From positions 1-20,519 of the IMG/VR virus record IMGVR_UViG_3300032093_001037: DNA of 20,519 nt; one strand, given 5' to 3'. The DNA is from a virus. Position 1 is the stretch's first letter; each line of letters starts with the position of its first letter. Position numbers and translations under genes: made by a program. Under the pieces are notes generated by a model. It did no database searches. It had not been told where the DNA came from and saw nothing but the letters and a program-made list of their open reading frames with translations. Below are positions 3,047 to 13,910 of this stretch, piece by piece.

Positions 3047-3559
3047 TTATAAAAGTTGTTCGGTTGATACAAGGTAAAAGTTAAAGTGAAAGAAACCTTC
3101 TTTGTATAGGGTTTCAAAGCATTGGTAGGCAGATTTGTCTATTTTTATGGATGCGGGTGAGTGATCTGAAAGGGGGTTAGAGGTTTTAAGTAGGGAGTGA
3201 ATGGGGTGAGCGATGAGGTTAATCCCGTAGAGTTTGGGAGAGTCTCTATCCGAGTAGACGTTATAATCACCGGGGGCGGGGTATGAACGTACTGGCTCCA
3301 TTTGTTGACCGTATACGAAGTTGTATTTTTTAAGCAGACGGTATTTATAGCATCCGGGGGTCATTAGTCTGGTGGGGTGTGCAGAGGTAGCACATTGGAA
3401 TTGGTGGTAGACTCTTTCGGTTCCGTTGATAGTTGGGATTAATATGGTGTCGTTCATCCCAGGTAAGGTACTATTGCGGATGGCTATAATGTCCGTAAAC
3501 TGTGGCAGGGTCTGATACGTAGTGTAGATGAAGTCAGAGAGTTTCTGGTATAGTGACAT
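3047..3559 (-). CDS. Unknown 170-aa protein, faintly like phage L,D-transpeptidase-type proteins
   Basis: Starts at ATG 3559 (MSLYQKLSDFIYTTYQTL) inside the end of the HTH gene (26-nt overlap). The order of motifs is: NDTILIPTINGTERVYHQFQC (about 37-57), a 'TPGCYKYRLLKK' turn (67-78), QQMEPVRSYPAPGDYNVYSDRD (85-106), LYGINLIAHP (110-119) and DHSPASIKID (132-141). This recalls small phage proteins of the kind 'G-Y ... QM-PV-VYRD-N-D ... GINIHR ... SAGCQV'. Here the usual His-Arg and Cys positions appear replaced (LIAHP; SPAS). If the comparison holds, the protein would be catalytically dead or altered. I treat this as a weak suggestion only; function remains unknown. Confidence 0.7.
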   Translation of the reverse strand: MSLYQKLSDFIYTTYQTLPQFTDIIAIRNSTLPGMNDTILIPTINGTERVYHQFQCATSAHPTRLMTPGCYKYRLLKKYNFVYGQQMEPVRSYPAPGDYNVYSDRDSPKLYGINLIAHPIHSLLKTSNPLSDHSPASIKIDKSAYQCFETLYKEGFFHFNFYLVSTEQLL

Positions 3560-3749
3560 AATGAGTTCGATAGAGTTTTTGTTTGGTTCGTTTGTAAAGG
3601 GAGCAAAAAGCAGTTCCGTTTAGTCCGAGTCTTCTTCCTGCTCTTGCGTAGGAATAGCCAAGTTCGTCTTTTAGGATGAGGCTGGCATACTGCCTAGGAC
3701 TGAGACCCCCCAAATCCAGAATTAGATCAAGGGTAAGTTCATTCTCCAT
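3534..3749 (-). CDS. Small HTH protein resembling sigma factor region 4 (71 aa)
   Basis: ATG 3749 (MENELTLDLILDLGGLS) is preferred because it lies in ATGGAGAATGA, overlapping the stop of the exonuclease gene: classic translational coupling. Residues 16-58 (LSPRQYASLILKDELGYSYARAGRRLGLNGTAFCSLYKRTKQKL) follow the sigma region 4 / LuxR-type pattern: a first helix ending in Leu, a turn, then 'SYARAGRRLGLN-TAF-SLYKR' as the recognition helix-turn-helix. There is no region 2, so it is not a complete sigma factor. It probably acts as a DNA-binding regulator, or as an anti-sigma or sigma-appropriating factor for early-to-late switching; this is inferred. Confidence 0.7.
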   Translation of the reverse strand: MENELTLDLILDLGGLSPRQYASLILKDELGYSYARAGRRLGLNGTAFCSLYKRTKQKLYRTHYVTIPETL

Positions 3750-5769: not shown

Positions 5770-5894
5770 AAGTCAGGACAGGATTCGAACCTGTAATTAA
5801 TCTGTTTCGTTAGTGCTTTGCAGAATAACTATTCTGATTAATCCCCACCTTTCGGCTGTTATCTGGGTAGCGTCTACCATTCCGCCACCTGACT
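5770..5894 (-). tRNA. Atypical class II (Leu-like) tRNA or tRNA-like element, about 125 nt
   Basis: On the minus strand a perfect 7-bp acceptor stem (AGTCAGG/CCTGACT), TG at positions 8-9, a D arm GCG-GAATGGTAGA-CGC, and a T arm ACAGG-TTCGAAT-CCTGT are all intact. The D-arm sequence is that of bacterial tRNA-Leu. A 7-bp stem (5836-5842 with 5796-5802) sits where a class II variable arm should be, but it encloses 33 extra bases including the 16-base palindrome at 5821-5836. The anticodon arm (27 nt, 5843-5869) forms at best a 4-bp stem with a loop of about 16, and no normal anticodon loop can be placed. CCA is not encoded. It may be an inactive or decoy tRNA mimic, or one carrying an insertion. 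Confidence 0.6.
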
Positions 5895-6021: not shown

Positions 6022-6450
6022 ATGATTGCCACGTATAGAAAAAAGCTAACTCCCGAAGTACTTGAAAAAGTTGTTAACGACATCGAAAGCAAGGGATACC
6101 CCAAGCCAATCGAAGACATCAAAATCCGAGATATCACTTTTTCTTATTATAGTGATACCGCTGATAAGTATCGTCTTGGCCCTGCTATTAGATTTACTCG
6201 CAACTTGGAATATCTAATGAATCAAAGAGACTTCAAATTTGTGGACCTAGGTAAAGAAGTGGAAAAGAAAACAGGTATTCCCTATGTGTTGTTTTTTTCT
6301 AGCGAATGTCTGAACCCCGACCGATACGCACTCAACACCCTATTTCAGTACACAGTCATCATTGGCTTCACTTTTAATATCTGCCCCTGGGATCTTCTTC
6401 AACACGATATCGAATATCTCAAGCAAAAAAATATGCTTAGTGTGTTTTGA
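6022..6450 (+). CDS. XRE/Cro-C1-like DNA-binding protein (142 aa)
   Basis: Residues 1-60 are a polar helical region (MIATYRKKLTPEVLEKVVND). From about residue 62, NLEYLMNQRDFKFVDLGKEVEKKTGIPYVLFFSSECLNPDRYALNTLFQYTVIIGFTFNICPWDLL follows the Cro/C1 helix-turn-helix layout: 'N-xx-LM', a helix with LGKEV in the recognition position, then NPDRYALNTLFQYTVIIGF before the typical P-W-D-LL end. The match is to the pattern, not to a named family. It stands at the divergent junction of early and late transcription, between the tRNA-like gene and the candidate RNA, so a switch or repressor role is plausible. Its stop codon overlaps the -33 box of the next promoter. Confidence 0.65.
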   Translation: MIATYRKKLTPEVLEKVVNDIESKGYPKPIEDIKIRDITFSYYSDTADKYRLGPAIRFTRNLEYLMNQRDFKFVDLGKEVEKKTGIPYVLFFSSECLNPDRYALNTLFQYTVIIGFTFNICPWDLLQHDIEYLKQKNMLSVF

Positions 6451-6475
6451 TATTTCAAATTTTACTTTAGATTTG
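6446..6475 (+). promoter_or_regulatory. Complete Bacteroidetes-type promoter for the candidate RNA
   Basis: TTTG (6446-6449), an 18-base spacer and TAGATTTG (6468-6475) match the -33/-7 consensus. The predicted start, near 6480-6482, coincides with the first base of the first stem of the structured region, which supports a dedicated transcript. Confidence 0.65.
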
Positions 6476-6480
6476 TAACC

Positions 6481-6780
6481 CCCTAACTGGACGGGATGAT
6501 CTACAGTGGCGGTTAGGGTAGTAGTGTTACCACGGGATTTCGGCAAAGCACAGCGATGGCACTAAGGAATGAGTCGCAGGACCGAACAGGGGGTGCAACC
6601 CTTGACAGTTGATTCCAAGTTGATGAACTTGCATGTTTTCATCAACCACGGAAGAGGGTGTACGAGAAAGTGTACAACTTCAGTGGGTGATCTCTGACGA
6701 CAAGTCAGGATAACTCACTGCACTCTAGGGTACCAAGAAAATGATGTAATCGTAGTATTAGATTACCTTAACTAGTAATA
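6481..6780 (+). ncRNA. Candidate structured noncoding RNA of about 300 nt
   Basis: No convincing frame occupies the 417 bases between the XRE-like gene and the portal gene. Paired elements in order: CCCTAAC 6481-6487 with GTTAGGG 6512-6518; TTCGG 6539-6543 with CCGAA 6582-6586 enclosing GCGA/TCGC (6553-6556, 6574-6577); GGGT/ACCC 6591-6601; GTTGATGA 6619-6626 with TCATCAAC 6639-6646; GAAG 6651-6654 with CTTC 6678-6681 enclosing TGTAC/GTACA (6659-6663, 6672-6676); CAGTGGGT 6681-6688 with ACTCACTG 6713-6720 enclosing CTGAC/GTCAG (6694-6698, 6704-6708); GTAATC/GATTAC 6746-6766. The 8-bp stem at 6681-6720 includes a G-U pair, supporting the plus strand. It has its own promoter and a terminator. 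I do not recognise the family. The phage RNAs GOLLD and ROOL also lie near tRNA genes but are much longer. Confidence 0.6.
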
Positions 6781-6816
6781 GGATAAAAGTATTCTTTTAT
6801 CCTTAAACTCATTTTT
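6781..6816 (+). terminator. Hairpin and T-run ending the candidate RNA
   Basis: GGATAAAAG (6781-6789) and CTTTTATCC (6794-6802) pair perfectly over 9 bp with loop TATT, followed by TTAAACTCATTTTT. The stem is A/T-rich, so it may be moderately efficient. It separates the candidate RNA from the portal promoter. Confidence 0.6.
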
Positions 6817-6854: not shown

Positions 6855-6862
6855 TATATTTG
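6855..6862 (+). promoter_or_regulatory. -7 box TATATTTG before the portal gene
   Basis: TATATTTG ends 5 bases before ATG 6868, so transcription would start at or next to the start codon. No -33 TTG is visible. The same arrangement recurs before 2040, 9139, 13935 and 20350. Confidence 0.6.
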
Positions 6863-6867
6863 TATAA

Positions 6868-9099
6868 ATGTTGGCTCTAAGAGAACAACCCAATCAGTTT
6901 ATTCCCGAAAACCAGAAAGATCAAAAATGGTTTTTAGGCAATTTGCGTTATATCGCAGAGAAGTACAATACACAACAAAATCAATTAGGGTATCGTCACG
7001 TCAACACTCTTCAAAAACCAATCGAAGAGATGATTCGTATGTTTACTTACTACCTAGGTAAACAAGAAAACAAAGATTACTACTACACCAACCAAGACGA
7101 AAACAACTGCGACTTACCAACTGTTTGGATTAATGGACAGAAGTTGACTTCTATGATTGACTTCATGATTGGTAACGCAATCAAAATGATTGAGAACATT
7201 GAACCTTCAGTTCGTGGCACCTCTCAAGCGATTGTTTCTCGTAAGTCCAAAAAGTTGGAATACGCTTTGATGAAGTTGGAACTCCAGGAACTTGTAGAAA
7301 TCATGAGTGCCAAAGGAGTTGAATTCAACCCTGTTGGCATGGAGACGTTTCAAAACAAAGAAGAATTGTTTCGTCACATGAAATACGACTACAAAGAACA
7401 GGCTGAAGTAGTTGCTCAAAGATTGGCTGAAGATATCCTTCACCGTAACCACTACATTGAAAAGTACAAACAGTCTTTTCTTTATTTGTTGCTTGGTGGA
7501 GTTTGCGGTATTGAAAATACAATCCAGAATGGAAAGCAAAAGAAAGACGTTATCCTACCTTACAATTTGATTTGGGATAACTCAGTAGATGATGATTTCA
7601 ATACCAAGGCTCATTTTGTAGGAAAGATTGAATGGAAAACCCCTGGTGAAATCCTTTCGAATCCTACTTATATGGAGACTCTGACCCCCGAGGAGGTAGA
7701 TGAGATTCGCCAAATGACGCACCAAAACATCGATAAGATGTTGGGCGAAGAATACATCACCAGCACTAAGTTGAGATGGTGGTATAATTATTCGGGCGTG
7801 CCAAAGATCGCGTGTATCACCGGGTATTGGATTGGATATAAAGAATTACGTTACGAAAAAACCAAAGACCAGTTCGGAAACGAGCACTTTGCAAAAATTC
7901 GTACCAAACACAATTCTAAATATTGGACCAAAACAGTTTACAAAGGCACCATTATCGCCAACAAATACGTGGTTGAATACGGTGAACAAACCAATATTGT
8001 AAGAAAATCAGATGAAATGGCTGAAGTTCAACTTCCCATTTCTGTGTTTCTTCCCAATATGGTGATGGGTGAGACTCGTTCTATCGCGTCTCGTCTTCAC
8101 AAACACCAGGATCGTATTGATTTCTTGAATAACGAGATCACCAAAATGATCACCCGTGCCAAGGGTAAAGTGTTTATCATGAACAAACACAAGTTGGGTA
8201 GTGCTACTTCGCAAGAAGTCCTTAACGATTTTACTCGTATGGGCATTCACATCACCGATGGCAACGCAACCGGGGAAGATTTTAACCAAAGCGACTACAA
8301 CAAAGTAGTAGAAATTGTTGATATGACACTCGATCCCAACGTACAAATGATTATGGCTCTTCGTCAAGAGGAAGAAAGAATCATGGAAGAGATTGTCAAC
8401 GTACCAAAAGTAGCCATGGGACAACAGCAAGGTTACTTAGGTGCCAAAACTCAAGCAGGTTCTATTGCCCAATCTAACTTGGGTACTGCTTATTTATACC
8501 AAGGCTTTATTCAGTTCATCGAAAAAGACTTACAGTTTGCCTTAAACCAATATAAAATTTCCCTTTTGACTAACAACGACCCCGAAATCGGTGTGTTGGG
8601 CGACAGAGAAATGGAATTTATCAAGGTAACCGACAATTTTAAGTTTGAAGATTTTGGCGTGTATATCAAAATCAAAGACTTTGTTGACGAACAGGCTCGC
8701 GAAAGATTGCTTGCCATTGCTCAAGCGGCCATGCAGAATCAGATGATTGACATGCGTGACTACATCAAAATCGAAACTTCCAAAACTTACACCGAACTTC
8801 TTAACGAGTTGGAATATGCTCTCGAGAAAAAAGATCGCGAAAAGAAAGAAGCAGAAGCAAAAGCACAAATTATGCAGGCGGCTATGCAAGAGGCACAAAT
8901 GGCTCAGCAGCAAAAAGCCGTTGAAACTGCACAACAAGGAAATAATTATCGCCAAGAATTAAAAACGGCTTCTGATTTAGTCAAGGCTAATCCTGATACT
9001 CAAGACGCGGCTGCTATGGAACCGACTGCGCCTCAACAAGGCGGTGAAGTACCTCCAGGTCAACCGATCGAAGAAACTGGGGCGGTGCCAGCATTATAA
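6868..9099 (+). CDS. Portal protein (743 aa)
   Basis: First gene of the virion module and the best candidate for the portal, the dodecameric ring at the capsid vertex through which DNA is packaged. Support comes from length (743 aa, typical of podovirus portals), position directly before scaffold-like and capsid genes, and layout: an N-terminal helical region, a long central alpha/beta body with LPYNLIWDNSVDDDFNTKAHF (about 230-250, the usual 'W-D' portal strand region), VFLPNMVMGETRSIASRLHKHQDRIDFLNNEITKM (about 395-430, stem-helix-like), and a long C-terminal coiled region rich in Gln and Ala (about 640-690, KKEAEAKAQIMQAAMQEAQMAQQQ) followed by a Pro/Gly-rich tail. The overall character resembles portals of crAss-like and related Bacteroidetes podoviruses. 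The terminase gene is not next to it, which is unusual. Confidence 0.8.
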   Translation: MLALREQPNQFIPENQKDQKWFLGNLRYIAEKYNTQQNQLGYRHVNTLQKPIEEMIRMFTYYLGKQENKDYYYTNQDENNCDLPTVWINGQKLTSMIDFMIGNAIKMIENIEPSVRGTSQAIVSRKSKKLEYALMKLELQELVEIMSAKGVEFNPVGMETFQNKEELFRHMKYDYKEQAEVVAQRLAEDILHRNHYIEKYKQSFLYLLLGGVCGIENTIQNGKQKKDVILPYNLIWDNSVDDDFNTKAHFVGKIEWKTPGEILSNPTYMETLTPEEVDEIRQMTHQNIDKMLGEEYITSTKLRWWYNYSGVPKIACITGYWIGYKELRYEKTKDQFGNEHFAKIRTKHNSKYWTKTVYKGTIIANKYVVEYGEQTNIVRKSDEMAEVQLPISVFLPNMVMGETRSIASRLHKHQDRIDFLNNEITKMITRAKGKVFIMNKHKLGSATSQEVLNDFTRMGIHITDGNATGEDFNQSDYNKVVEIVDMTLDPNVQMIMALRQEEERIMEEIVNVPKVAMGQQQGYLGAKTQAGSIAQSNLGTAYLYQGFIQFIEKDLQFALNQYKISLLTNNDPEIGVLGDREMEFIKVTDNFKFEDFGVYIKIKDFVDEQARERLLAIAQAAMQNQMIDMRDYIKIETSKTYTELLNELEYALEKKDREKKEAEAKAQIMQAAMQEAQMAQQQKAVETAQQGNNYRQELKTASDLVKANPDTQDAAAMEPTAPQQGGEVPPGQPIEETGAVPAL

Positions 9100-13260: not shown

Positions 13261-13281
13261 GTTTTAGTTTAATGTTTAGTG

Positions 13282-13302
13282 CCCCCCGCAAGGGGGGTTT
13301 TT
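13282..13302 (+). terminator. Intrinsic terminator abutting the NinG start
   Basis: C6 (13282-13287), loop GCAA and G6 (13292-13297) are followed by TTTTT. The next ATG lies 6 bases after the T-run, so the downstream gene begins almost inside the terminator. Confidence 0.9.
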
Positions 13303-13307
13303 GTTTT

Positions 13308-13910
13308 ATGCCAATTAGAAAAGTTGTAAAAAAAGAACCTGTAAAAGGAAAAGTAGAGAAACCTCTAAAGGAGGAAATCTGCTCAGAATGTGGAAAAAAA
13401 CGTCCGTATTCGAACAAAACCAAGAAATTATGTGCAGTTTGTGTGAAAAAATCACAAATAGCGAAGGTTAAAGAAAAGAAGGCAAAGGTCCGTCAAAAGA
13501 AAGCCATCTCTACAAGCGTACTGATTAAAAAACTAGACGCTTTGTATTCTGTGTATATAAGATTAAAAGCAATCGAAAAGGATGGTTATGTAAAATGCTT
13601 TACTTGTGATCGAGTAGAATACTGGCGTAAAATCCAGAATGGTCACTTTCAGTCAAGAAGATTTTTATCTACTCGTTTTTACGATTTTAATTGCGCCCCT
13701 CAATGCTATGCTTGTAATGTTGGGCTGAGCGGAATGCAGTATGAGTATGGCATCAGACTTGATAAAAAATATGGCGAGGGCACGGCACAACATGTTGTCG
13801 AATTATCGAAGGAGTTTTGCAAATTTAATTCCGATGAACTGCTGAAAATGATAGACGAAACTGAGCAAAAAATACAATTCTTAAGGAAGTTGAAAGACAT
13901 ATGGGATTAA
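13308..13910 (+). CDS. NinG/Rap-type recombination endonuclease (200 aa)
   Basis: NinG (Rap) of lambda-like phages cuts branched DNA such as Holliday junctions and D-loops. ATG 13308 is used; the upstream ATG at 13272 would put coding sequence through the terminator. An N-terminal Zn-ribbon-like pair is present (C25-SEC28 and C42-AVC45), followed by a very basic linker (KVKEKKAKVRQKKA, 53-66). The NinG core follows: C97-FTC100, N111-GHF-SR, then TRFYDFNCAPQCYACN (122-137), and GMQYEYGIRLDKKYG (142-156), matching 'AGHF ... R-D ... QC-CN ... N-EYR--L---YG'. It sits among virion genes, not with recombination genes, hinting at a role in resolving DNA before packaging, or at a recent insertion. 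No promoter is visible before it, so it may rely on readthrough of the terminator. Confidence 0.88.
   Translation: MPIRKVVKKEPVKGKVEKPLKEEICSECGKKRPYSNKTKKLCAVCVKKSQIAKVKEKKAKVRQKKAISTSVLIKKLDALYSVYIRLKAIEKDGYVKCFTCDRVEYWRKIQNGHFQSRRFLSTRFYDFNCAPQCYACNVGLSGMQYEYGIRLDKKYGEGTAQHVVELSKEFCKFNSDELLKMIDETEQKIQFLRKLKDIWD

Follow-up and report, generated by a model that had tools for sequence, protein, structure and literature searches.

The intergenic stretch directly upstream of the portal gene in the window, that is, the whole stretch of 20,519 bases analysed here (IMG/VR virus contig IMGVR_UViG_3300032093_001037), almost certainly encodes a conserved structured RNA. Seven helices, of which two are pseudoknots, are kept in eleven aligned sequences, one of them the window (Table 1), and we treat the RNA as a divergent relative of the Rfam family RF02932 (Betaproteobacteria-1), of which it is not a member by the cut-off of that family. 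An earlier note, made from the sequence of this DNA, had proposed a complete RNA gene, from promoter to terminator-like end, between a regulator gene and the portal gene; this proposal is strongly supported by the covariation and by the absence of a reading frame shared by the whole family. That it is a stand-alone RNA which acts in trans, belongs to phages and mobile elements and offers two equivalent sites for binding has in our judgement, taken as a whole, an even chance of being right.

Fold, strand and ends of the RNA

Table 1. Features of the RNA locus in the window. Pairs are called double-sided when both sides changed among the aligned sequences; cells are the base-pair cells of the alignment.
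Feature	Position	Strand	Observations
tRNA-like gene	5770-5894	-	125 nt; Rfam tRNA, 36.6 bits; unusually long arms
Bacteroidota-type promoter	6446-6475	+	TTTG 6446-6449, 18-base spacer, TAGATTTG 6468-6475
Structured RNA	6481-6755	+	covariation in 11 sequences, model R1; 3' limit uncertain
P1	6481-6487 with 6512-6518	+	7/7 pairs double-sided; 2/77 cells non-canonical
P2	6524-6528 with 6547-6551	+	3/5 pairs double-sided; 0/55 cells non-canonical; GGGA in loop
Pseudoknot PK1	6539-6543 (P2 loop) with 6582-6586	+	5/5 pairs double-sided; 0/55 cells non-canonical
P3	6553-6557 with 6573-6577	+	3/5 pairs double-sided; 0/55 cells non-canonical; loop GGCACTAAGGAATGA
Pseudoknot PK2	6566-6570 (P3 loop) with 6612-6616	+	2/5 pairs double-sided; 0/55 cells non-canonical
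P4	6587-6592 with 6599-6604	+	4/6 pairs double-sided; 0/66 cells non-canonical
P5	6620-6626 with 6639-6645	+	7/7 pairs double-sided; 5/77 cells non-canonical
Direct repeat, copy 1	6656-6672, core CGAGAAAGTG 6663-6672	+	concerted change, 20 chosen RNAs
P7	6681-6688 with 6713-6720	+	outer 5 bp canonical in 43/45 cells, strands read by hand in 9 sequences
Direct repeat, copy 2	6727-6743, core CCAAGAAAATG 6733-6743	+	concerted change, 20 chosen RNAs
Terminal hairpin, terminator-like	6780-6803	+	z = -4.82
T-run	6812-6816		starts nine bases after the terminal hairpin
Portal promoter box	6855-6862	+	TATATTTG, separate; five bases before portal ATG 6868
Portal gene	6868-9099		PHROG portal family

In the hand-made element alignment (window, L002, L003, L004, L008, L017, L035, L040, L044, L051 and L141, L002 being nearly identical to the window), every element is present, and in order, in each of the eleven sequences. 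Canonical pairing was found in 433 of 440 base-pair cells and compensatory changes in 31 of the 40 pairs, counts that lean towards structure because the elements were picked by eye. The best-supported helix is the pseudoknot PK1, and P1 encloses a two-strand motif that reads GGACGG / ACAGTGGCG in the window and, in RF02932 as in several relatives, GGUCGG / ACGGCAGCG. When nine sequences were aligned by a tool, 26 pairs in five helices were 98.3% paired, a value that fell to 33-49% when the partner strand was slid. Eleven of these pairs had changed on both sides against a shuffled mean of 7.4 (2 of 500 shuffles reached as many), and the further pair types numbered 19, below the shuffled mean of 22.6; since the nine sequences form two groups, many pair cells reflect few events. 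The covariation among homologous phages on which the earlier note had made its reading depend is thus present, and so is the 8-bp stem with one G-U pair that it had pointed out (P7).

The stretch 6478-6810 folds at -100.9 kcal/mol (z = -3.07, none of 100 shuffles being as good), and the minus strand of the region also folds well (z = -3.67), so that folding energy does not settle the strand. We assign the RNA to the plus strand because nine aligned homologues carry G-U pairs there, in 19 of 230 pair cells, which would be A-C on the minus strand.

The promoter of Bacteroidetes type that had been read in front of the first stem, named after the consensus of the Bacteroidota (TTTG-N18-TAnnTTTG), recurs in layout and position: TTTTG-N18-TAnnTTTG ends 4-6 bases before P1 in five of nine phage loci (window, L002, L003, L004 and L044). 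The box of L035 is about 23 bases away, and no exact box was found at the position before P1 in the remaining three of the nine (L008, L017, L040). We infer that the RNA starts at about 6480. At the other end, the hairpin of the proposed terminator stands, and hairpins of different sequence occupy its place in L003 and L004, but the T-run does not follow it directly, which makes the terminator imperfect.

The hairpin stops 64 bases short of the portal ATG, a position that could suit a cis-acting leader or attenuator of portal transcription or translation. We consider such a leader very unlikely, as the relatives have differing downstream genes and a TAnnTTTG box is found directly in front of the portal ATG, in the 45 bases preceding it, in 19 of 19 loci checked (a count that leaves out L005, L006, L022 and L023). 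This box suggests that the portal mRNA would be leaderless, or nearly so, from the ATG at 6868.

A coding region was rejected as well. The frame from ATG 6569 (42-45 codons) is open only in the window and the three loci nearest to it, L002, L003 and L004; in 7 of the 12 loci compared a stop follows within 7-11 codons, and in L141 after 28. Over 24 codons its changes at positions 1/2/3 number 2/6/4, 4/3/2 and 4/5/4, with no third-position bias, and the nearest loci show 5-8 changed residues against 2 silent codons. These results bear out the earlier view that no convincing frame crosses the stems. The earlier note had also seen no tmRNA signature, and neither ARAGORN nor Rfam recognised a tRNA or tmRNA in 6446-6816. 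The tRNA-like gene mentioned there as a neighbour is placed by Rfam on the minus strand (Table 1); ARAGORN gave no call for it and none in 18 related loci, and an Rfam scan of L003, L004, L008, L010, L017 and L018 listed no tRNA.

A repeat pair around P7 and other elements before the portal gene

In the 3' domain, the two copies of a direct repeat sit on the 5' and 3' sides of P7. Over the six bases after the anchor, the copies match at 100 of 120 positions in 20 RNAs (8 phage RNAs, 7 stretches of the type B described below and 5 of 18 betaproteobacterial-type sequences), against a mean of 83.1 when partners were shuffled within groups (p at the floor of 5e-5, 20,000 shuffles). This test is generous because the RNAs were chosen for readable copies and those within a group share kinship. 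Anchors were set by hand, only where both copies could be read, and the count does not include L002, L051, L139, L141 and L358. By eye, the likeness between the copies is poor in L141 and L358, and no second copy is recognisable in some betaproteobacterial copies of the RNA, nor in L133, L152 and L158. The copies appear to evolve together, as would be expected of two sites read by one partner, or of gene conversion.

A guide or bridge-type RNA, whose repeats would recognise target nucleic acids by pairing and steer a nuclease or recombinase, could also have two short co-changing segments flanking one stem, and some copies of the RNA lie near integrase, TniQ, IS21 or IS66 genes (integrase and IS66 named by eye). 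Its chances are slim: the repeats vary little between lineages, no nuclease or recombinase recurs beside the RNA, and no complement rose above shuffles in four phage records (G001, G002, G009 and G005). In this search with the repeat copies and their complements, 15 of 16 longest matches stayed within the maximum of 30 shuffles, and the one above it was a same-strand match of 13 bases in G009 (shuffle maximum 12).

The portal gene of the window has 22 related loci among viral contigs, two of them distant. In ten of the 22 (L007, L009, L011, L014, L015, L016, L018, L019, L020 and L021) another conserved stretch, which we call type B and which contains GGAAAGGGGGGAAAGGGGGGTATGG, takes the place of the RNA immediately ahead of the portal gene. 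Its repeat pair is of the same kind; the covariation term of its consensus fold is unfavourable (+1.42, from seven distinct sequences), with 7 of 49 pairs double-changed, and despite the shared repeats we do not call it a homologue of the RNA. In L008 and L017, a second hairpin RNA-like element occurs at about 3505-3600, a short way upstream of the RNA. It may form an 11-bp pseudoknot, and by eye its helix strands differ compensatorily between the two loci.

Kinship with RF02932 and distribution of relatives

Nothing in the RNA region exceeds an Rfam gathering score, and to that extent the RNA is unrecognised, as the earlier note had called it; its core is nevertheless distantly related to RF02932, which scores 30.3 bits on the window, 34.4 on L003 and 33.1 on L004, all three below the gathering cut-off of 49.4 bits. 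Run on nine records, RF02932 matched four, none over the cut-off. A covariance model built from nine phage RNAs only, of Bacteroidota-type phages (R1), finds L051, which lies outside the model, at 83.9 bits (E 6e-22), although L051 had originally been found by a motif that R1 itself contains. R1 scores 52.0 bits on L141 and 48.1 on L358 and, with filters off on short loci, 38.7 on L150 and 31.4 on L253. On the betaproteobacterial L139 it scores 18.7 bits (E 4e-4 in 28 kb, filters off), and only 9.9 on L133 and 3.8 on L134. Since RF02932 also matches the intermediates L150 (35.2 bits) and L253 (36.9 bits), these two bridge the two sets and show common descent.

Both RNAs appear to have a P1 around a motif of the GGUCGG / ACGGCAGCG type, GGGA in the P2 loop (UGUGGGA in several phage relatives), a P3 starting with UGGC and PK1 at the matching place, as read by hand in L133, L139, L150 and L253. 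Over model positions 1-120, GGACGG / ACAGTGGCG and CACGGGA of the window align as near matches, and L035 and L044 are closer than the window to the GGUCGG / ACGGCAGCG and UGUGGGA of RF02932. The P3 loop differs, with GGCACUAAGGANUGA in the window and GGCGAAGUUAGC in RF02932, and the structure line of the 120-position Rfam model is drawn without pseudoknot or repeat pair. Rfam lists the family as an sRNA gene; in the literature searched, no paper came up under the names RF02932 and Betaproteobacteria-1 RNA motif.

Relatives were gathered through portal homology and through the motif GGCACTAAGGANTGAG, which occurs in 31 stretches, most of them unrelated by eye; a stretch was kept only if it also had the surrounding elements. 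R1 matched one of 395 Bacteroidota genomes and one of 196 genomes of its order, the identical genome. In the order to which Paracandidimonas belongs, the Burkholderiales, 6 of 349 genomes were matched by RF02932 (4 over the cut-off), in the phylum 4 of 398 (3 over) and in one Burkholderiales family 32 of 249 (30 over); the samples overlap. None of 14 control genomes matched in these three RF02932 searches. In the search of nine records, run at E up to 10, the control is uninformative, because 11 of the 14 matched below the cut-off. The below-cut-off matches L137 and L138 look like chance by eye. Seven contigs carry two or three RF02932 matches (G1329:C21, G1358:C28, G1277:C10, G1201:C2, G1315:C8, G1259:C82 and G1153:C17), about 3 to 100 kb apart and on one strand in all seven. 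L187 13622-13732 and L148 7545-7655 are partial copies in which P1 seems to be lost (42.2 and 46.1 bits, below the cut-off).

A genome search with the exact motif gave 66 stretches, of which four passed a loose filter and all four were judged chance by eye. In viral contigs, a strand-motif search gave at least 121 occurrences, and among the matches listed 14 passed a loose filter and L253 was accepted by eye; a pattern drawn from the RF02932 consensus had no matches. Among INPHARED phages, neither the window portal protein nor the RNAs of the window, L133, L044, L051 and L018 found a match, and the L358 RNA gave one chance-like match of 33 bases in two records. The L133 RNA had no match among plasmids.

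Gene neighbourhoods and possible roles

In the group of the window, the RNA comes after the gene of a 142-aa protein and before the portal gene. In L008 it follows a RusA-like gene (PHROG), and similar proteins were seen by eye in L017, L035 and L018; unlike in these relatives, no RusA-like gene was seen before the RNA of the window, which carries a NinG/Rap-like nuclease gene at 13272-13910. Elsewhere, the RNA lies antisense between virion-type genes (L051), before an antirepressor-like gene (L358; both named by eye) or between AbiL genes and the gene of HamB, the Hachiman helicase (L141). The nearest genes of bacterial copies encode Hma (L144), PDC-S06 (L146), a PLD protein (L143) or AbiL and HamB (L147); L150 has integrase and AlpA-like genes nearby (by eye) and L145 an S24 repressor. 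Other bacterial copies lie near TniQ and IS21, and many among ordinary genes. Upstream on the strand of the RNA, an H-NS-like gene was seen by eye in L179 (10034-10978), L185 (9312-10160) and L191 (6999-7808).

No neighbouring gene recurs throughout the relatives, which is evidence against a portal leader and against a packaging RNA. The latter role, among those suggested in the earlier note, would place the RNA in the portal/terminase motor and would explain why it was kept beside the portal gene, and in the window and its close relatives the spot immediately in front of the portal gene is indeed taken by the RNA or by another conserved stretch. We regard it as highly improbable: besides the settings of L051 and L358, no portal gene was seen near the bacterial copies, in the related record G009 the terminase gene is not reached until about 41 kb downstream, and no packaging-RNA model of the phi29 type is among the three Rfam matches up to E 5. 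Since other phages and bacterial genomes carry relatives at a distance from portal genes, a portal-linked function is not favoured. The regulatory and anti-defence roles, also suggested in the earlier note, are possible.

G009, a nearly identical phage record of 68 kb, also carries an ORF of 4111 aa (L208 3736-16071) and an integrase gene (L210 3720-4463, phrog_95, serine type by eye), and may therefore be temperate.

The association of the RNA with defence genes is only suggestive. In a PADLOC test at E 1e-10, 17 loci were set against as many control segments of the same contigs, with ORFs defined by a simple rule; the 100 flank ORFs gave matches to 40 models and the 101 control ORFs to 3. 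The 17 loci come from 27 fetched bacterial neighbourhoods, second copies and short contigs being left out (L144 with Hma and L146 with PDC-S06 among them). The association is weak because 17 of the best 25 of the 40 models are HamB models, each matched by one ORF; counted as proteins, by our reading of the table, at most 7 of 100 flank ORFs (best 25 of 40 models) stand against at most 4 of 101 in the control. Defence genes, Abi among them, beside some of the bacterial copies, together with the purine-rich repeated sites, could suit an RNA decoy of antitoxin-like type, whose repeats would mimic the substrate of a host RNase or of an abortive-infection toxin. This is unlikely: no adjacent toxin recurs, and the repeats are only about ten bases long, unlike the known type III antitoxin repeats.

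We thus come back to the stand-alone, trans-acting RNA. Sequence comparison shows the conserved fold of P1-P5, P7 and two pseudoknots, the promoter box at the first stem in the nearest relatives of the window, the distant homology with RF02932, the varied settings and the concerted repeats where these are readable. The host RNA polymerase would transcribe an RNA of about 270 nt, whose pseudoknotted core could serve as a scaffold, probably for a protein, while the repeats on the two sides of P7 would be equivalent sites for one partner, differing between lineages; the RNA would act in trans. A conflict of the phage or mobile element with its host or with rival elements, in which the RNA might for instance sequester a host or defence factor, is a possible role, and naming it the most likely use is little more than a guess. 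That the RNA belongs to a widely spread machine of phages and mobile elements, in which a conserved pseudoknotted scaffold, its specificity set by a pair of co-evolving recognition segments, would serve in conflict without an adjacent protein gene, seems to us rather doubtful.

These data connect phage-borne RNAs with a betaproteobacterial Rfam motif that is uncharacterised, and give this motif a fuller architecture than that of RF02932, with two pseudoknots and a repeat pair. Since the phage copy is compact, and seems to have its own promoter, the function of the RNA becomes testable.

Among known systems, the pRNA of phi29 joins the portal/terminase motor. Like the window RNA, which lies near the portal gene, it is modest in size, structured and encoded by a phage; the relatives of the window RNA differ in not being tied to packaging genes, and this location evidence speaks against a packaging function of the phi29 type. 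The window RNA is ornate, as are GOLLD, ROOL and OLE (PMC12286853). Some of these occur in phages; the window RNA is much shorter, and none of their models is among the same three Rfam matches up to E 5. The RNA anti-CRISPRs (Racrs) are, as here, small non-coding RNAs of phages, with a possible counter-defence use in common; Racrs are reported to mimic CRISPR repeats (PMC10651486), whereas the window RNA has a conserved pseudoknotted core.
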